Below, one piece after another: positions 34,129-44,702 of a stretch of 47,940 nucleotides of DNA. The notes beneath the pieces were generated by a model. The model had not been told where the DNA came from, ran no database searches, and saw only the letters and a list, made by a program, of their open reading frames with translations. Source of the stretch: a bacterium (GTDB taxonomy: Bacteria; Verrucomicrobiota; Verrucomicrobiia; Limisphaerales; UBA8199); NCBI GenBank assembly GCA_021784555.1, contig JAJYHY010000013.1:1-47940 (forward strand). Direction: 5' to 3'. Positions within the stretch are counted from its first letter, which is position 1. Every line of letters begins with the position of its first letter. The translations under genes and the position numbers were made by a program.

Positions 34129-34249
34129 GTAACTGCTCAGGTCAAGCTGCCAGACGCACGCGATAGGAGCGCCGACGCCCTCGTCCGCGACTGCGGCCTT
34201 CCGGGGACGCGGACGAGGGCGTCCGGGCTCCTATCACCTGAGCAGTTAC
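34129..34249 (+). repeat. Nested-palindrome element (family B), copy 1
   Basis: The outer ends GTAACTGCTCAGGT (34129-34142) and ACCTGAGCAGTTAC (34236-34249) are a perfect 14-bp inverted repeat. Inside, 34162-34188 and 34209-34235 pair 25 of 27 (GATAGGAGC...GAGGGCGTC words). A second copy with the same ends and the same extra CAAGCTxxCAGACGCACGCG insert, in opposite orientation, lies at 44577-44702. Insertion between nfnA and leuS. Confidence 0.9.
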
Positions 34250-34704
34250 CATAGAACGATGGTGATAAGCCGGCAGGAAGTCAACCTTTTCGGGTTAGGA
34301 CCGCGAAGCACGCGAAATACGCGGAAAAAGAGAGGAGAACCACGGGATACACCGAGTACACGGAAAGAGGTGATTTGCTATCGGCTCATGGAGTAGGCGC
34401 CACGCCTCAGCGATTTATCGATGAGAACTTTGGGGTTGACGCCATCGCGGCAGCAACTTGGCACGAGCACACCTTGCAAGGTGTGCTCATCGAGTCATCC
34501 ATCCTCCGGACTGCTCTTTGCCGCCGCGCTTGCGGTCGCTTTTCCGTGTGTTCTGTGTATTCCGTGGTTCGCTTCCCGTTGGGCGGCCGGGTTTGAGCAT
34601 TTCTCCTGGCCGTATCCGAGATTGTTTCGGGTCTCGAGCTTCGGATCTCGAATTGTTTCTAAAACTTGGCAACCGACCGGTTTCAATGCATCATGTTCCC
34701 CTCT
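34250..34704. repeat. Gene-free stretch with ACACGG word repeats and a perfect 24-bp palindrome
   Basis: AACCACGGGATACACCGAGT (34338-34357) and a complementary block ending TATTCCGTGGTT (about 34541-34569) form an imperfect long hairpin. Further GCGAAGCACGCGAAATACGCGG words lie at 34306-34330. In the middle 34465-34488 is an exact palindrome (GAGCACACCTTG plus its complement). Nothing coding is convincing; leuS begins at 34705. Confidence 0.65.
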
Positions 34705-37133
34705 ATGGCATCTGGTCGCAGGCAGTACCCATTTCACCTGATTGAGCCCAAATGGCAGCGCTTTTGGGAGGAGCAACAGACTTTTCGCGCGTGGAATCCG
34801 GGCGAAGCGGTTCCGCGCGAGCATCCCTTCGCCCAACGCCACCCTGATGTCGAGCCGGGGGCGCTGCCGAAGTTCTATATCCTGGACATGTTCCCCTACC
34901 CATCCGGGGCCGGGCTGCACGTCGGCCATCCGGAGGGTTACACCGCCACGGACATCCTGGCCCGCTACCGGCGCGCCCGGGGTTTTCACGTTCTTCATCC
35001 GATGGGCTGGGACGCCTTTGGTCTGCCGGCGGAGCAATATGCCATCAAAACCGGCCAGCACCCGCGCCAGACAACCGAAGAGAATATCGCCACGTTCAAG
35101 CGGCAGATTCAATCGCTGGGTTTCAGCTATGACTGGTCGCGCGAACTGGATACCACCGATCCGGCCTATTTCAAATGGACCCAGTGGATCTTTCTCAAGA
35201 TGTACAACTCGTGGTTCAATCCGGCCACGAACAAAGCCGAGCCAATTGAGACGCTTCCCTATCCGCCGGAACTCCAGGGCGGCGGTGGCCGTGCCCCGGC
35301 GGAGATGGAGGCCAAGCGCCGCGCCTATTGCGATTCCAAACGATTGGCTTATGTCACGGAGGCGCCGGTCTGGTGGTGCGAGCAACTGGGCACTGTCCTT
35401 GCCAATGAAGAGGTGGTGGATGGCAAGAGCGAGGTGGGCGGCTTCCCGGTGGTGCGCCGTCCGATGCGCCAATGGATGCTGAGAAGATCCCGATTTGGAT
35501 CGCCGATTATGTTCTCATCTCTTACGGCACCGGGGCGATTATGGCGGTGCCGGGGCACGACACGCGTGATTACGAGTTTGCGACCAAGTTCAATCTGCCC
35601 ATTGTAGAGGTGGTCCGACCACCCGAGGGGAAAGATTGGCGCGGTTTTGTCGATGACGGGGTGTCGGTCAACTCGGCTAACGCGGAGGTTTCGCTCAATG
35701 GTTTGGCCACGCCCGAAGCCAAGACGAAGATCATCGCGTGGTTGGAGGCCAAGGGCCTTGGCAAAAGGACCATCAACTACAAGTTGCGGGACTGGCTTTT
35801 CAGCCGGCAGCGGTATTGGGGCGAGCCATTTCCCATTATATGGAAAACCGGGCCCGACGGGCTGGCCTATCACGAGGCGTTGCCGGAATCTGCCCTGCCT
35901 GTGCTGCCTCCTCCATTGGAAGATTACAAGCCCACCCTGGACGGCCAACCACCTCTGGCCCGCGCGCGGGACTGGGTTGAGTTGCCCGACGGGGCCAAGC
36001 GCGAGACCAACACCATGCCGCAATGGGCGGGGAGCTGTTGGTATTACCTGAGATACCTGGACCCAAAGAATCCCGGCTGTTTCGTCAACTCAGACGCGGA
36101 GAGATATTGGATGGCGTCGGGGTCAGTCCTCACTTTTTCCGCAGAAATGGAAGGCGAAGCGGCGGAAAAAGGCGCAGGGCTGACCCCGACGCCTTCGGGC
36201 GTTGATCTCTATGTGGGCGGAACCGAACACGCGGTTCTTCACCTTCTCTACGCTCGATTCTGGCATAAGGTCCTTTTCGATCTTGGCTGCGTCTCCAGCC
36301 CGGAACCGTTTTATCGGCTGGTGAACCAGGGCCTGATCCTGGGTGAAGACGGCCAGAAGATGTCGAAATCTCGAGGCAACGTCATCAACCCGGATACCAT
36401 CCTGGCCGAATATGGCGCGGATGCTTTTCGCCTCTACGAAATGTTCATGGGCCCGCTGGAGATGGTCAAGCCCTGGAGCACCAAGGATGTCGAAGGGGTA
36501 TATCGCTTCCTGGGCAGGGTGTGGCGGTTGTTCATTGACGAAAAGAGCCATACGGATTTTGAGCAGGATGTAGCCGCCGAGCCGAGGCGCGCGGCTGAGT
36601 TCCTGGGCGGAATCAATTTGAGTTCAAAGCTCCAGGAGGTGACGCCCGCGCGCGCGCAACTCAAGGTTCTCCATGCCTGCATCAAGAAGGTCACCGAGGA
36701 CCTTGAGGGCTTGCGCTTCAATACCGCCATTTCGGCCCTCATGGTCTTCGTCAATGAGGCCACCGTGTGGGAGCAGAAGCCGGCCTCGGTCCTGCGCCAG
36801 TTTCTCATTCTCTTGCAGCCATTCGCGCCCCATATCGCGGAGGAATTGTGGGAGAAGCTCGATGCGGCATTTCCTGCTGCGCTCCCGGCGTTGGGCTACG
36901 CCCCGTGGCCTGAGTTTGACCCGAGTTTGCTGGTGGAGGACACGCTCGAAATCCCGGTGCAGGTCAACGGCAAACTGCGCGACGTCGTTAAGGTGCCTGC
37001 CGCCATTTCGCAGGCCGACCTGGAAGCAGTGGCGAAAGGCTCCGAGAAGGTCAGACCATTTATCGACGGCAAAACCGTCAAGCGCGTGATCGTCCTGCCC
37101 AAGAAGCTGGTGAATATCGTGGTGGCGGGATAG
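34705..37133 (+). pseudogene. leuS: Leucyl-tRNA synthetase, interrupted by an internal deletion
   Basis: From [18 protein letters not shown] the gene reads normally through the HIGH-type motif HVGH and the block RRPMRQWML to about 35481. The frame then changes (frame 1 to frame 3) at ATGGATGCTGAGAAG and resumes with [16 protein letters not shown]. Comparison with known LeuRS order shows roughly 110-150 residues missing. That region is the first half of the CP1 editing domain, with its Thr-rich TTRPDT editing pocket. The second part has [23 protein letters not shown] (EDGQKMSKSRGNV), the anticodon domain and the end NIVVAG. A separate 81-bp palindrome interrupts it in frame at 36113-36193. Essential-gene loss is unlikely, so an assembly error or an additional copy must be considered. 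Confidence 0.8.
36113..36193 (+). repeat. In-frame palindromic element inside leuS
   Basis: GGCGTCGGGGTCAGTCCT (36113-36130) plus CACTTTTTCCGC pairs with 36162-36193 (GCGGAAAAAGGCGCAGGGC then TGACCCCGACGCC), one long hairpin with a 19-nt loop. It is read in frame between YWM and GVDLYVGGTEHAV of LeuRS, adding about 28 residues (ASGSVLTFS...GLTPTPS) absent from LeuRS as I know it. No stop or frameshift is caused. REP-like in style. Confidence 0.85.
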
Positions 37134-37260
37134 AATCCGACCTCGCGCGGCGAGGGTCCTCGAATACCGAGGCGAGCTGCAGACGGGTCGGGTTTTGCGG
37201 CTCGTGCGAAGACGGCGAAGCTGTCGAGGATCTCCGGCCCCGCTCAGTAGCCCCGCCGGC

Positions 37261-37338
37261 ATTTCGCATTAGGCATTGGGCATTTACCATTCATCGCAAT
37301 GCGAAATGTACAATGCCTAATGCCCAATGCTCAATGAG
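37261..37338. repeat. Family A word repeat, third copy
   Basis: ATTTCGCATT (37261-37270) pairs with AATGCGAAAT (37299-37308). The words CATTAGG and CATTGGG (37267-37284) recur complementarily, in swapped order, at 37312-37329. It sits between the convergent leuS and phage connector genes and could double as a terminator. Confidence 0.85.
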
Positions 37339-37383: not shown

Positions 37384-37965
37384 TCAAAGTTGCCACCGGG
37401 TGTAGCGTCCCAGGACAGCCATGACGCTGGGCAGAAGATCGGAGCCGGCGAATTTCTGAAACACGCCGCCCGCTGGCCAGAGCTCCAGCACGCCAACGGT
37501 GTTGCGGTTTTGAAACCAGAACGCGAGCTGCTCAATAGCGGCTTGCTCGATCTCGTCCGGAAGCGGGGTCTGGCCGGCGGCAGGAACAGAGCCGGGCAGG
37601 ACGTAACCGCCGGTGTAGGTGAGGCGTGCCTGGTCACGGGGGCTGCCCAGAGGCTCGGAGAGGGAGACGAAGCAGGAGTGACGGAGGAGATAGTCAACGC
37701 CGGTCTGCTCTTGCCAGCCGTCCTGCTCCGAGGACTTCAGTTCGAAGCGAGTAACGGTCTCGAGCGGATAGCAGGCGAGGCTGATTTCGGTGGAATCCGC
37801 CTCGAACTCCTGGAGGAGGCTCTCGGTGCGGGCCAGAGTGCGGGAGCATTGAAGGTCGAAGCGCCTGGAAACGGCGACGATGGCATTGGTGAGGATGGTA
37901 TCGTAGGTAAGGTCGGTCTCGAGGATGGCGAGACGCGTCTTGACGGATGAGAGTTGGGTAAGCAT
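37384..37965 (-). CDS. Phage head-tail connector (gp6-like)
   Basis: The 193-aa product (MLTQLSSVKTRLAILETDLTYDT...) has the N-terminal helical pair and TNAIVAVSRRFD block of the HK97 gp6/phage connector family, then a beta part with VDYLLRH and TGGYVLPG and a C-terminal helix. In phages it forms a ring under the portal to which tails attach. It is the last gene of the head module, and no tail gene follows: the next gene downstream is the convergent leuS. The 245-bp gap upstream to the capsid gene consists largely of word repeats. Confidence 0.78.
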   Translation of the reverse strand: MLTQLSSVKTRLAILETDLTYDTILTNAIVAVSRRFDLQCSRTLARTESLLQEFEADSTEISLACYPLETVTRFELKSSEQDGWQEQTGVDYLLRHSCFVSLSEPLGSPRDQARLTYTGGYVLPGSVPAAGQTPLPDEIEQAAIEQLAFWFQNRNTVGVLELWPAGGVFQKFAGSDLLPSVMAVLGRYTRWQL

Positions 37966-37969
37966 AGGG

Positions 37970-38167
37970 GATTTTAGATTTTAGATTTTTGATTTTTGAT
38001 TTGCGATTTGCGATTTGGGAACCGGCCACTTGGGATCTGAGATTTGAGATTGGAGATTCGGAATGGGCGGTTGGGGGCCAAGTTGGGGGTTCGCTCGAAG
38101 ACATTCACACATCGGCGGACGGGGCCGTTTTGAATCCCAGTCGCAAATCTAAAATCTAAAATCGAAA
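37970..38167. repeat. Word repeat (GATTTGCGATTTG / TTTTAGATTTT)
   Basis: Iterations of TTTTAGATT, GATTTTTGATTTGC and GATTTGGG run to about 38062, with the reverse-complement words TCGCAAATCTAAAATCTAAAATCG at 38141-38167. The two can pair. The same vocabulary returns at 39666-39823 and 42302-42336, always between genes of the head module. Confidence 0.9.
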
Positions 38168-38170
38168 GCC

Positions 38171-38195
38171 GCTGCCCTGGCCAAGCCAGGGCAGC
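38171..38195 (-). terminator. Perfect 11-bp stem hairpin after the capsid gene
   Basis: GCTGCCCTGGC (38171-38181) pairs perfectly with GCCAGGGCAGC (38185-38195) around a 3-nt loop. It lies 16 bp past the stop codon of the major capsid gene and is followed on the minus strand by a T-rich, but mixed, stretch. It is possibly a terminator that would lower expression of the connector gene. Confidence 0.5.
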
Positions 38196-38211
38196 GCACT
38201 TTGGGGGTTGG

Positions 38212-39567
38212 TTATGCCGCGGCGGTTAGCAGGACGGCCGTGGCGTCAGTAGCGGCGTAGTCGAAGTCGATTTCTTCGATGAAGCGGACCGCGAGCTGGT
38301 CATTGGCGAACCAGACGTGCTCGGAGGTGTCGATGCGCGGAGTACCGTGCTCGCCCATCCACCAGAAGGAGAGGGCGCCGAAGACGGCGAGTGGGACGTC
38401 GGGGGAAGCGCCGGTGCCGTAAGGGGTGAGGACATCGGTCCACACGACAGGGTAACCGTCGAGAACGGCGGAGCCGTCCGGCAGGCGCTGATAGACGTTG
38501 GGCTCGGCGGCGGTTTTGAAGGCCGGGAGGCGTGCCTCCCAGGTGCTGTCGAGGTAGTAGGCGGAGAGGCGTCCGTTGAGGGCAGCCTTGCTGACCTGCA
38601 ATCGAAGGGCGCGGAGGTCATCGAGGGTGGCGTCGGAGGGCTTGGTCTTGCCCGCGGCGAGGGTAACGGTTTTGCCATTGTCGCGAGCGACCTGGACGAC
38701 ACCCTTCACCGTTTCGAACGAGACGCCGCCGTTGGCCAGGAAGCCCCAGCTATCCTCAGCGCGTGCGAATTCCACGGCGCCATAGCGGGCCAGGAACTGA
38801 CCCATAGCGACGATGCTTTGCTCGTCGATTTCACGCGGCAGCCGGACGATGCCGCCCACCTTGTGGGATTCGAGCGAGGCGAAGGTGATCGAGGGCGACT
38901 CCTCCGCGAAGGCTCCGGACATGGCGACCGAACCGAACGCCGGGCGGGCGCCCATGCGGGCTGGCCGAGCCGTGCCCATGCCGATAGGGTAGGGAGACAT
39001 CCGGCGGCGGACAACCCCGAACTCCGAGATGAGCTCGCGCACTTCGCCGCTGTACTGGCTCGGCAATGGAATTTCGGCGGTAGTCAGCGCGGAGCGGGTG
39101 GTGAGGTTAAGGGCCTGGCAGGCGAAGCGGGTCAAGGCATCGCGCTGGGCCGGAAGCGAGCAGAGCGCGTCGAGTTTGCCGCTCTTTTCGCAGTGAGCAA
39201 TAAAGGAGGCGGCGAAGTACTCGGCGCACCCGTCGGTGACGCAGCCGGGGAGGCGGACACGCGGGGTGGCGAGGGCGCGGGCGGCGGACAAGCGGCGCAC
39301 GTCCTGCAGATGCTGGCGCAACTGGGCCGTGTCGGCTTCGAGGGCCTTGAGGCCGCCCGGCAGCGCCTTGATCTCGCCCCAGCCCTCCTTGATCTCACCA
39401 AGGAGGCCCTGGAATTCCTTGACCTGCTCCTCGGTCAAGACCAGCGGAGCCAGGGCGAGCATGAAGCCGGAGGCCGCCAGGTCGAGGCGCAACGTGTGAA
39501 GGCCGAAGTACGCCAGCGCGGTTAAGAGCGCCAGCCCGATAATACTAACGATCGTTTTTTTGTTCAT
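38212..39567 (-). CDS. HK97-fold major capsid protein with N-terminal hydrophobic segment
   Basis: The 451-aa product has a Leu/Ala-rich membrane-like segment (about 5-24, IVSIIGLALLTALAYFG) and a second hydrophobic stretch (about 32-45). A coiled-coil delta-like region follows (about 48-95, EEQVKEFQGLLGEIKEGW). The HK97 capsid body comes next (about 130-451; MSGAFAEESPSITFASLESHKVGG, LNGRLSAYYLD, VVWTDVLTPYGTG, IDFDYAATDATAV). RBS-like GAAAGAAAGA precedes the chosen ATG; the internal start MLALAPLVLTEEQ would drop the membrane segment. A delta domain is normally cut off by the prohead protease, which is encoded upstream. A membrane-like N-terminus is unusual for a capsid protein. Confidence 0.82.
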   Translation of the reverse strand: MNKKTIVSIIGLALLTALAYFGLHTLRLDLAASGFMLALAPLVLTEEQVKEFQGLLGEIKEGWGEIKALPGGLKALEADTAQLRQHLQDVRRLSAARALATPRVRLPGCVTDGCAEYFAASFIAHCEKSGKLDALCSLPAQRDALTRFACQALNLTTRSALTTAEIPLPSQYSGEVRELISEFGVVRRRMSPYPIGMGTARPARMGARPAFGSVAMSGAFAEESPSITFASLESHKVGGIVRLPREIDEQSIVAMGQFLARYGAVEFARAEDSWGFLANGGVSFETVKGVVQVARDNGKTVTLAAGKTKPSDATLDDLRALRLQVSKAALNGRLSAYYLDSTWEARLPAFKTAAEPNVYQRLPDGSAVLDGYPVVWTDVLTPYGTGASPDVPLAVFGALSFWWMGEHGTPRIDTSEHVWFANDQLAVRFIEEIDFDYAATDATAVLLTAAA

Positions 39568-39849
39568 AGTTCTGTCTTTCTTTCTGTGCCCCGGATGACT
39601 CCGAGGCGGGTTTCTTGATCAGCCGTTTGAGGGCGGACCGGGTTTTTGGTTTATGCGGGAAGATGGGAGATTTGCGATTTTTGATTTGCGATTTGCGATT
39701 TGGCGTTCGCCATTTGCCATTTGAGATCTGAGATCTGCGATCCGAAATTCGAGACCTGAGGCCTGAAGCCGAGACCTGACCTCTGATCTCTGGCCTCTGA
39801 CTTCTGACTTCTGACCTCTGATGTCGTATATTTCACTTTACGTACCTTT
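39568..39849. repeat. Gap filled by word repeats (GATTTGCG, GATCTGA, CTTCTGACTTCTGACCTCTGA)
   Basis: From 39666 to 39823 the gap is a run of related words: GAGATTTGCGATTTTTGATT, then ATCTGAGATCTGCGATCC, then GACCTGAGGCCTGAAGC and TGACTTCTGACTTCTGACC. It lies between the capsid and protease genes. No gene. Confidence 0.85.
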
Positions 39850-40734
39850 TTATGCGGCACGGAGGATGCGGCTCAGCTCGCGCGCCAGCCCCAGCCACTC
39901 GGTCTCGAAGCCCGGCGGGGCTGAGAACCCGGCCAGGCTTTCCGAGGCGGCATGGGCTTCAGAACCAGAAGCATCGGACGAGCGGCGGCTGGAGAATTGG
40001 CGGAGGAAATCGAGGAGGTCTTCCAGGTCGGACTTGTGAAGCGCACCGGCTCGGAAGGCAAGCTGGAGGGCATCCGGATTGGCGGGCAGGCCAACCGCCG
40101 AGACTTCGAGCAGTTCTTGCTCAAGGTAGCGGCGGCGGAACCCGGCCTCCGGTCCGCCCTCTTCCCAGCGCAGAGGGATGAAGCCGACGGACACGGCGTT
40201 GAGGAACCGGTCGCGGTAAAGGCCATAGGCGATTTTGGCGATGGGGTTGGCATCCGTAGCGAATTGGATGCGCTGGAAAAGAAAGGCTGAAGGCTGAGGG
40301 CTAAAGGCTAAAGGAGAGGGAGTGTCTTGAGATGCGGTTGGTGGGCTGTCTTGCGGGGCAGGGGCGTGTTGTGCTGGTGTCGCGTCCGCCGCCGGCAGGG
40401 GGCCGGAGCGGACCTCGGTAATGAGGGCCTTGCCGAGGGTGAAGAGGACGTCGCCGTACTGGTGGGCGTTTTGGAAGACGGGGTTGCGACGGTAGTTTTC
40501 CAGGCGCCAGCCGCTGGCGAGGATGATCTCGCCGTAGCGATCGAGGGTTTCGTTGGAAGCGATGAAGTCGATGACGGGCAGGCTCGGCGCTTCGCCGGGA
40601 GAGCCGGGGGATGGGGCGCGGGTTTGGACTGAGAGGGTGCCGCGCAGGCCGGGGCGTCCGTCGGAGAGGGCGACGAGGCGGTCATGAAGCGGGGCGAGGT
40701 CGGGCGTAGGAGATAAGGGAGTAATGGAGTTCAT
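39850..40734 (-). CDS. HK97-type prohead protease with an in-frame word insertion
   Basis: The 294-aa product has the S78-like core: FIASNETLDRYGEIILASGW, NPVFQNAHQYGD (His91), YRDRFLNAVSVGFIPLR (Ser182) and the block YLEQELLEVSAVGLPANP (Glu210). Together these form a plausible His/Ser/Glu triad. Between His91 and Ser182 is a 40-residue Ala/Pro/Gln/Ser insert (about 111-152), the last part of which (SPLAFSPQPSAFLFQ) is encoded by a word repeat at 40282-40314. Without it the His-Ser spacing is about 49 residues, ordinary for the family. A Glu/Pro-rich N-terminal tail precedes the core. Should cleave the capsid delta domain during maturation. Confidence 0.8.
   Translation of the reverse strand: MNSITPLSPTPDLAPLHDRLVALSDGRPGLRGTLSVQTRAPSPGSPGEAPSLPVIDFIASNETLDRYGEIILASGWRLENYRRNPVFQNAHQYGDVLFTLGKALITEVRSGPLPAADATPAQHAPAPQDSPPTASQDTPSPLAFSPQPSAFLFQRIQFATDANPIAKIAYGLYRDRFLNAVSVGFIPLRWEEGGPEAGFRRRYLEQELLEVSAVGLPANPDALQLAFRAGALHKSDLEDLLDFLRQFSSRRSSDASGSEAHAASESLAGFSAPPGFETEWLGLARELSRILRAA
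40282..40314. repeat. Word repeat inside the prohead protease gene
   Basis: AAAGGCTGAAGGCTGAGGGC followed by TAAAGGCTAAAGG are five variants of one 7-nt word (AAGGCTG/AAAGGCT). It lies in frame in the protease coding region and encodes the repetitive LAFSPQPSAF peptide. Confidence 0.8.
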
Positions 40735-40766
40735 GGGAGTTATGGGAATTATGGGATGACTGGGAG

Positions 40767-42296
40767 TTATGGGTTGGGGGTTTGGGAAAGTAATTGGTCG
40801 CCCGGGGTGGACGCTTCAGCGTTGGTGACTGTGTGTTTGGGCTCGCTGGTCGCAGGTGCGGTCGCGGGAGACGCGCCATCAGCCAGTGTGGTTCGGGGCT
40901 GCGGGCGGTCGAGCAGCCGCTCGAGACGGGAGAGAGCGGAAGGGGGCTCGGGCGTCGTGGATTCGGCGGCTGGCGTGGATTTGGCGGGTGGAGGGGCAGG
41001 CGGAGGCAATTCGCCGGCTTGGATGAGGCCCGAAGGCAGATAACCGCGGTTGCCCCAGGGCAAGGGCTTGAATCCGAGGTCAAACACGCGATTGAGCTCG
41101 TTGAGGGGGATGCCCATGTCAAAGCCGGCTTTGGCGGTCTTCAGGCGGTCGCGGCGGGCTTGCTGAAGCAGCGGGAGGCTGTCGGTGTCGAACCAACCGA
41201 CGGCGCGCGAGTCAAGGGCCTTGACGGTGGCGGCCTCGGTGGCCTCCAGGCGGCGGCAGAGGGGCAGGACGCGGTTTTCGATGAAGTTGAGCCGGGCGCC
41301 GGCCATCACGTTATACTTGGCGGTGTCGGTGGTGGTGACGATTTCCTCGGGAACCCCGAAGGCGGCGCAGATTTCACCACGGGAGAACTTGCGGTTGTCC
41401 AGAAATTGGAGGTCGGTGCTGGAGAGGGTGGGCTGCACAATTTCGGCGCCATCAGCCAGGAGCATGGGGCGATCGGGGGTTCCGGCCTTGCGTTTGCGCT
41501 CGCGCAAGGCGCCCAGGATCTGCTCGCGCTGCTCGGGGCCGAGAGCCTGCTGGGTGCGAACGATGACGCCGACGTCGCCGTTGTTTTCCATGAGGCCCTT
41601 CATGAAGGCGCCGGCGGCGTAATCGGTCTTGCAGGCCAGCGCGGCGGCCTGGAGCGGGGCCAGGCCACGCCAGAGGCTGAAGGGGTCCGGCAGCTTCTCG
41701 AACCAGACTTCTTCCGGGAGGAAGAGGCGGTTCTCCAGCGGCGTATCCGGGCCGAGGCCGGTGTAGAGCCAGCCGACAAGCTGATGGTCCTGGATGATGT
41801 GCTGGAAATGGGCCGGGTCGAGGATTAGAACGGAGCGGAGCCCGGAATGGGGAGCGCGGAATGCGGAATGGGGATCGGAGGGGACAGAGGGCTGGGGGTT
41901 GGCGGGGTCGTCGAAGATGGGTACGCGGAAGCATTCACCGCGGAGCATGAGCCATATCACGCGCAACTCCCAATACTGGAACCGATCGATCTGCGGATGC
42001 GGGCGGGAGTAGAACTCGTGCAGGGGACCGTCCTCGATAACGCGCTCATCGCCGGGACGATCGATGGAGAAGCGGAAGGGAATGTTGGCGACTTGCTCGG
42101 CGAGCACGTTGACGGCGCGATAGACCCAGACGACCTGCTGATAGGCGTTGGACAGGACGGCGCCGCCGGCGTCAATGTCCTGTCCGCTGAGCCAGGCGGC
42201 GGCGGTGGAGGAAAGAGACCTGGTGCGGGGTTGGGCGGCTGCGGCAGGGCGGGCGCCCGGACGCGAGACTTGGATGTTAAGGCCGAAGAGTTTCAT
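40767..42296 (-). CDS. Phage portal protein (HK97 family)
   Basis: The 509-aa product carries the portal core: NAYQQVVWVYRAVNVLAEQVANIPF, RFQYWELRVIWLMLRGECFRVPIFDD, HIIQDHQLVGWLYTG and ENNGDVGVIVRTQQALGPEQREQIL. The DLGFKPLPWGN region follows, then a long Pro/Ala-rich C-terminal tail (about 415-509). The tail is longer than usual (typical HK97 portals are about 400-430 residues). The word repeat at 41831-41880 is translated in frame as the peptide after RVPIFDDPANPQPS. A ring of twelve would form the DNA entry vertex and dock the terminase. Starts 49 bp after terL, a gap made of word repeats. Confidence 0.86.
   Translation of the reverse strand: MKLFGLNIQVSRPGARPAAAAQPRTRSLSSTAAAWLSGQDIDAGGAVLSNAYQQVVWVYRAVNVLAEQVANIPFRFSIDRPGDERVIEDGPLHEFYSRPHPQIDRFQYWELRVIWLMLRGECFRVPIFDDPANPQPSVPSDPHSAFRAPHSGLRSVLILDPAHFQHIIQDHQLVGWLYTGLGPDTPLENRLFLPEEVWFEKLPDPFSLWRGLAPLQAAALACKTDYAAGAFMKGLMENNGDVGVIVRTQQALGPEQREQILGALRERKRKAGTPDRPMLLADGAEIVQPTLSSTDLQFLDNRKFSRGEICAAFGVPEEIVTTTDTAKYNVMAGARLNFIENRVLPLCRRLEATEAATVKALDSRAVGWFDTDSLPLLQQARRDRLKTAKAGFDMGIPLNELNRVFDLGFKPLPWGNRGYLPSGLIQAGELPPPAPPPAKSTPAAESTTPEPPSALSRLERLLDRPQPRTTLADGASPATAPATSEPKHTVTNAEASTPGDQLLSQTPNP
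41831..41880. repeat. Word repeat inside the portal gene
   Basis: Variants of GGAATGGGGAGC/GGAATGCGGAATGGGG in tandem are read in frame and encode SDPHSAFRAPHSGLRS. The segment falls in a surface-like loop between FDDPANPQPS and VLILDPAHFQ. Confidence 0.8.
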
Positions 42297-44576: not shown

Positions 44577-44702
44577 GTAACTGCTCAGGTGGCGATAGGA
44601 GCGCGGACGCCCTCCTCCGCGACCGCAGCCTTCGGGGGATGCGGACGAGGGTGTCCGGGCTCCTATCGCGTGCGTCTGCGAGCTTGACCTGAGAGCAGTT
44701 AC
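44577..44702 (-). repeat. Nested-palindrome element (family B), copy 2
   Basis: Same GTAACTGCTC...GAGCAGTTAC ends and same GATAGGAGC/GCTCCTATC inner arms as 34129-34249, in opposite orientation, with a few differences (one extra pair of bases near the right end: CTGAGAGCAG). It lies between the head module and the tRNA fragment. Confidence 0.88.

Follow-up and report, generated by a model that had tools for sequence, protein, structure and literature searches.

Selfish palindromes that are translated as part of proteins are best known from Rickettsia, bacteria with small genomes, in which such palindromic elements were reportedly described by Ogata et al. in 2000 and 2002. In the available part of a review (PMC10969869), Rickettsia palindromic elements (RPEs) are ~150 bp long and lie in frame within genes, a precedent also named in an initial annotation of the locus studied here. 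Among REPs, the RAYT-associated GTAG type is a hairpin of 20-40 bp that has GTAG at one of its ends. The CGTC type, as described in the accessible text of PMC3733652, has a terminal CGTC, a stem of 8-9 bp in which AT pairs nearly always come first, and a loop of 4-5 bp. In the same text, Di Nocera et al. (2013; PMC3733652) report REPs and REP dimers inside ORFs, where dimers or groups code for 20-30 aa; the number of intragenic GTAG repeats is highest in the verrucomicrobium Opitutus terrae, genes with REPs include those for DNA polymerase I and tRNA synthetases, and two Xanthomonas hold different REPs at about the same recB site (PMC3733652). In-frame palindromes as a phenomenon are already known from these accounts of Rickettsia and O. 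terrae, and because the latter is a member of the Verrucomicrobiota, the remark in the initial annotation that no description was known in this lineage is not supported. The PBECR family of domains has been described in phage and conjugative-element proteins (Iyer et al., 2017; PMC5512222); in the main text of that paper, as available, neither 'tRNA synthetase' nor the name PBECR3 occurs.

The palindrome described here lies in the gene for leucyl-tRNA synthetase (LeuRS), leuS, of an uncultured member of the Verrucomicrobiota, in a stretch of DNA of 47,940 nt that was analysed as a whole (the window). With an RPE it shares its palindromic repeat structure, an in-frame position within genes that are unrelated to one another and a predicted translation, the likeness being one of behaviour only; unlike the ~150-bp RPEs, which belong to another phylum, it is 81 bp long and comes from the Verrucomicrobiota. 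It differs from the GTAG and CGTC REPs, as characterized in PMC3733652, in being an 81-bp single hairpin without a GTAG tag, whereas six of the inserts found in leuS of relatives resemble GTAG REPs in having GTAG and CTAC near their two ends. Unlike the REP sites given in the available text of Di Nocera et al., the LeuRS gap that holds the palindrome is common to many families and also holds 7-bp repeats and a protein domain, and the RPE descriptions, in their accessible portions, do not mention that unrelated repeats fill the same gap time and again in many lineages. That domain, PBECR3, here lies inside an essential tRNA synthetase, unlike in the PBECR contexts of the published main text. 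We conclude that the leuS palindrome is very probably a REP/MITE-like non-autonomous mobile element, belonging to a family of at least 150 copies in this genome, that sits in a likely tolerant surface loop of LeuRS and is predicted to add ~28 extra, probably unstructured residues to the enzyme.

An 81-bp palindrome is read in frame within a split leuS gene

The positions of the palindrome and of the parts of leuS are listed in Table 1. The gapless arms (inverted repeat I13) measure 21 nt, are 90% complementary and are spaced by 45 nt, and with bulges their inward extension in the fold reaches roughly 31 bp, in agreement with the arm length first proposed. The 121 bases at 36093-36213 fold with a minimum free energy of -64.2 kcal/mol, compared to -41.5 +/- 4.0 kcal/mol for 200 dinucleotide shuffles (z -5.7), none of which (0/200) folded as well. 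The arm sequence GGCGTCGGGGTCAG has two exact occurrences in the window, one in each arm. Within the ORF of the leuS 3' part the palindrome is free of stops and reads ASGSVLTFSAEMEGEAAEKGAGLTPTPS, ~28 residues with YWM on one side and GVDLYVGG on the other, just as the initial annotation had it. In T. thermophilus LeuRS (1h3n, phmmer alignment) the corresponding gap position falls between M530 and V532.

Table 1. Features of leuS and of the palindrome in the window (positions count from the first letter of the window)
Feature	Position	Strand	Basis or remark
leuS 5' part, 313 aa, another frame	34666..35607	+	TIGR00396 272.9 bits; tblastn of five relatives' LeuRS
Deletion and frameshift join, editing region	35470..35483	+	QWML directly into DAEKIPIW
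leuS 3' part, 553 aa	35472..37133	+	ORF; TIGR00396 leuS_bact 511.7 bits, curated cut-off 548.4
Palindrome left arm	36110..36130	+	inverted repeat I13; pairing extended inwards by fold
81-bp palindromic repeat element	36113..36193	+	fold z -5.7; model R1 match 105.2 bits, positions 1-81
LeuRS hot-spot gap, 29 codons	36114..36200	+	flanks YWM (36105-36113), VDLYVGG (36201-36221)
Palindrome right arm	36176..36196	+	inverted repeat I13

The leuS gene is split in this assembly, and its deletion and frameshift constitute a second lesion that had been overlooked: 123-149 residues are absent at the join compared to LeuRS of five relatives. A second sequence, P0004 (ENA, contig of 9402 bases), encodes 659 aa that are 99% identical and include the same palindrome-coded residues, and the palindrome is therefore seen in a second contig. 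In P0004 the editing region and the palindrome-coded segment are in one frame and the window's deletion is missing; this deletion is therefore either strain-specific or an assembly error, and it may be the latter because the assembly is 87% complete and consists of 658 contigs. The N-terminus of P0004 (MAVRRRNWIGR) is odd and unlike that of LeuRS, so that a complete leuS of this species is contained in neither sequence. Given the separate deletion and frameshift in the window, translation of the palindrome in this strain is a prediction.

The lesion also suggests another reading, in which the leuS of this strain is decaying as a pseudogene and dead DNA is all that the palindrome lies in. This would account for the frameshift and the loss of about 123-149 aa, and it fits with the genome searches, in which the assembly yielded no other LeuRS and no second location for the missing editing piece (the latter search run without a positive control). 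However, LeuRS is an essential enzyme for which a second copy is lacking in the assembly, the frame is open from the join to a normal C-terminus, P0004 joins the editing region to the palindrome segment with no deletion in between, and the deletion itself may stem from assembly; we therefore give decay of leuS a small chance of being correct and favour a mobile element carried within LeuRS.

Modelling had been expected to place the palindrome-coded residues in a surface loop. In a model of the window's own LeuRS piece (44-row alignment, mean pLDDT 74), residues 216-241 had a pLDDT <50, but so did six other segments, and the model is poor because half of the catalytic domain is missing.

The palindrome belongs to a dispersed repeat family with at least 150 copies

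Allowing at most one mismatch, the arm sequence occurs 97 times in forward and 98 times in reverse orientation in the 8.8-Mb assembly, compared to 1 and 4 times for a reversed control. BLAST with the element gave at least 42 near-full-length matches with E <= 3.8e-20 (40 of 261 candidates scored), and a covariance model, R1, built from 33 copies of which the leuS copy is one, matched 150 of 150 scored candidates over positions 1-81. The hairpin, which had been predicted to recur elsewhere in the genome, is thus present in at least 150 full-length copies, a number that is a floor as 150 of 5147 candidates were scored. The copies are not identical (mean column identity of 89% among the 33). A 22-base arm pattern had 153 matches with at most one mismatch in this genome and 0 in 12 further genomes from its family. 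Furthermore, 6 of 146 copies were recognized, at <=3 mismatches, as a longer version that measures about 130 bp and is bounded on each side by outer inverted repeats; at <=4 mismatches the outer repeat was present on the left side in 26 and on the right side in 13 of the 146.

As a short palindrome with many dispersed copies in one genome, the element is REP/MITE-like in the broad sense, which is also consistent with an 81-bp core too short to encode its own mobilization. It is not a GTAG-tagged REP, the consensus of the 33 copies starting with GGCGTCGGGG and finishing with CCCCGACGCC, nor a CGTC-tagged one: CGTC does occur close to the end, but GGGG and a long stem enclosing a large loop come after it. 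In 10 of 143 copies the flanks contained repeats of >=9 bp, compared to about 0.6 expected from shuffled pairs, with varying lengths and offsets; among these copies there was no constant target duplication, and the element thus does not fit a classical DDE-transposon MITE, which has a target-site duplication of constant length.

The genome contains 17 Y1_Tnp matches above cut-off. No full copy of the element was present in the ~1.5-kb flanks (less at contig ends) of 18 Y1_Tnp matches, where only weak arm-like bits were seen, and we rejected a transposase adjoining the element since no Y1_Tnp has a full copy beside it. By analogy to the REP/RAYT pair, the Y1_Tnp proteins, none of them beside a full copy, are candidate movers of the element. 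A phage or viral source was likewise rejected, as phage records gave no match and viral contigs no exact match to a 24-base arm, and so was a known RNA family: none reached the gathering score, and three weak matches to animal or plant RNAs were taken as chance matches on a hairpin. No description of the repeat family was found in the open-access literature among the matches listed.

Copies of the element lie in frame within unrelated genes

The 146 distinct copies with flanks were scored for codon use, with this genome as the training set, and a copy was called coding-like when an open frame of >=150 nt and a coding-like score were present on each side. By this measure 28 of the 146 copies, including that in leuS, were coding-like. 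They lie in 22 ORFs, with polA, queA, hypF and NRPS genes among them, and this genome of 8.8 Mb thus has copies in coding-like places that include core genes. The element sits in genes in several reading frames and is in frame in several unrelated ones. When the 21 ORFs other than leuS were searched against Pfam, 18 had a domain at E <= 1e-5 (10/10, 5/5 and 3/6). The domain match spans the insert in four of them (RVT_1 of an RT-Cas1 ORF, HypF_C, Apiosidase and an NRPS AMP-binding domain), and the domain is split or ends beside the insert in QueA, the 3'-5' exonuclease of PolA, a condensation domain, GH106 and ADDB_N. Three copies each were present in one NRPS ORF and in one alpha-amylase-family ORF, which we take to be TreY.

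In a second classification of the same 146 copies, with a stricter cut and 240-nt flanks, neither side was coding for 71 copies, one side for 51, 4 lay at contig edges, 3 had coding on opposite strands, and 17 had same-strand coding on both sides. Within the last class, 14 copies (that in leuS lying outside these) had the same open frame on both sides and 3 had different frames. The latter were considered as frame-changing insertions, an interpretation that we rejected because their translations place all of them between two different genes. No gene-breaking copy was found among the 17 (0/17), as would be expected if frame-breaking insertions were purged; the number is small and covers same-strand cases, and the homology searches covered the ORFs of the 28 coding-like copies. 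The codon score is rough and not free of antisense matches, because copy L012 passed on both strands.

We also considered an element adapted to coding, that is, with a length divisible by three and with frames that are open only in genes. The length was divisible by three in 17 of 28 coding copies vs 64 of 118 others (Fisher p = 0.67). Open frames in the element were about equally frequent in the two groups. Coding and other copies do not differ in these respects, and the element is therefore not itself adapted to coding.

In a separate observation, copies L020 and L016 showed the element in tandem with duplicated flanking residues inside queA and polA (FAAQRSDRG... and EAHDMEGRGQ...).

The YWM/VDLYVGG gap of LeuRS is a hot spot for unrelated repeats

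The size of the gap was read in the window, in 80 named loci and in 125 loci that come from genomes in its order, with success in 205 of 206 (L142 was unparsed). It ranged from 1 to 197 residues in these 205 loci and was commonly a single residue outside the Verrucomicrobiota (YWMPVDLYVGG), as judged from 78 of 80 relatives, and it measured 11 to 196 aa in 123 of 123 LeuRS proteins (the best 120 of 7998 plus three proteins from the PBECR3 search described below). At E <= 1 the palindrome had no counterpart in the LeuRS of relatives (0 of 215 loci, some of which overlap), as the initial annotation had proposed. Its status as an insertion in LeuRS therefore stands as far as the palindrome itself is concerned, but the gap in the relatives' loci is not empty and holds 1 to 197 other residues.

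Inserts were scored as hairpins at z < -2.5 (mononucleotide shuffles) and as 7-bp periodic at a lag-7 identity >=0.5. The relatives provided 79 distinct inserts with a length of 13 to 60 aa, of which 34 were repeat-like by one or the other measure and 45 reached neither threshold; control windows of equal size in the same genes gave 1/79 at 15 nt upstream and 0/79 at 15 nt downstream. Among 82 distinct full-length LeuRS, 23 of 36 long segments at the YWM/VDLYVGG gap were hairpin or 7-bp segments, compared to 8/24, 0/47, 0/5, 0/4, 1/48 and 1/5 at the other variable gaps (those in which >=4 LeuRS have >=12 residues, with inserts >200 nt excluded). By kind, six inserts have GTAG and CTAC near their ends, 26 are made up by 7-bp repeats, and four, including that of the window, are other hairpins. 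At least 10 of 16 relatives (G007, G120, G109, G014, G021, G025, G095, G017, G028 and G087) have further genomic copies of their own leuS insert among the matches listed. On a FastTree tree of LeuRS (196 rows, insert left out), which rests on at most about 370 residues, the repeat-like state would have been gained or lost at least 28 times in all. The YWM/VDLYVGG gap is a hot spot that the palindrome shares with unrelated repeats. Since the same spot holds unrelated repeats or a nuclease-like domain in relatives, it is likely a tolerant surface loop.

The gap with 8/24 repeat-like segments lies at about residue 220 (L065 numbering), corresponding to about 35250-35320 in the window, which has 20 residues there.

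Hairpins recur at the YWM/VDLYVGG gap in relatives, and that of leuS is strong and lies in the middle of the gene, as might be seen if the hairpin were retained for what it does in the mRNA, be it pausing, an effect on co-translational folding or the regulation of LeuRS, instead of being tolerated in a loop. Such a role is very unlikely, in our judgement, when many relatives have unpaired 7-bp repeats, low-complexity linkers or a folded domain in the gap, when the gap is commonly a single residue outside the Verrucomicrobiota, and when the same element is found in many unrelated genes and gives no RNA family match at the gathering score. We favour instead a loop that tolerates insertions of mobile elements. 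Nothing on palindromes at this LeuRS gap was found in the open-access literature among the matches listed, and neither was a case of one gap in an essential enzyme being refilled by unrelated repeats and a nuclease-like domain.

A PBECR3-like domain occupies the same gap in five relatives

In five relatives from five families of the order (L373, L374, L375, L378 and L391; LeuRS ORFs L393-L397) the gap holds 189-197 residues, and Pfam PF18812 (PBECR3) matched above its curated cut-off in 4 of 4 inserts scanned (L378 being outside the scan). The LeuRS genes of these five relatives remain open over 1103-1182 codons. When proteins of LeuRS length were searched with the domain by itself, three were obtained (P0001-P0003), all of which are LeuRS with PBECR3 by precomputed annotation, one of them 98% identical to L394. 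In an AlphaFold model of the L394 protein (33-row alignment, mean pLDDT 82.9), the domain was mostly confident and its C-terminal linker was not; the best solved match of the model was LeuRS 2bte, with a TM score of 0.79 by target length. The gap thus accepts a whole domain, which among the present results speaks most strongly for a surface loop. Segments that are shorter but have a similar tail (P0046, 88 aa; P0018, 37 aa; L316, 49 aa) look like decay products, judging from their sequences. Nothing on PBECR3 in LeuRS was found in the open-access literature among the matches listed.

The large PBECR3-like domain that five genomes have at this point, confidently folded in the one that was modelled, together with a gap of 11 to 196 aa in every one of the 123 LeuRS proteins (the best 120 of 7998 plus three), might be taken to indicate that the insert is a selected new function of LeuRS, such as a docking or regulatory segment. 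This is extremely unlikely to be correct, as what is inserted differs in kind, without relation, from one LeuRS to another and the peptide encoded by the palindrome is the same as in polA, queA, NRPS and other ORFs. We maintain that the leuS palindrome is most likely a copy of a mobile element that is tolerated in this loop.

In addition, genome G048, in which the other LeuRS holds a ~190-aa insert (L378), contains a 1638-codon ORF (L400:2513-7426) whose N-terminus is 2-isopropylmalate synthase-like by eye and is joined to LeuRS.

A model for the filling of the LeuRS loop

We propose that palindromic elements may land anywhere in the genome and that, within genes, the survivors would be in-frame insertions in tolerant loops. 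The YWM/VDLYVGG loop, being tolerant, would then gather repeats over time, and these repeats may decay into low-complexity linkers. A more far-reaching possibility, which we consider rather unlikely, is that this loop is a true docking site for mobile DNA in the lineage, at which a palindrome, once placed, would attract the next one. REPs, 7-bp repeats and a phage-type nuclease domain would in that case replace one another at one codon position, and selfish DNA would there add segments and domains to a core enzyme. With copies in coding-like places of this genome and with a LeuRS position at which relatives have unrelated repeats of several kinds, the share that selfish repeats have in protein sequence becomes directly testable, and the gap can be compared over hundreds of genomes in which it is nearly empty, freshly hit, decayed or filled by a whole domain.

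Other repeats and a prophage-like region in the window

The window contains further inverted repeats. Those at 34157-34240 and 44592-44669 have common ends, GATAGGAGC...GCTCCTATC, and probably represent another repeat family. The 11-mer GCGATAGGAGC (<=1 mismatch) was found 23 times in 383 kb of this genome on both strands, with about 6 expected by a rough equal-base estimate. The inverted repeats at 32-107, 37259-37330 and 37980-38167 consist of roughly 7-bp units (GCATTAGGCATTGGGCATT; GATTTGCGATTTG), the same kind as fills the LeuRS gap in relatives. Finally, the region at 37384-42296 on the minus strand, which starts about 250 bp downstream of leuS, is prophage-like by eye, with portal-like and capsid-like ORFs.
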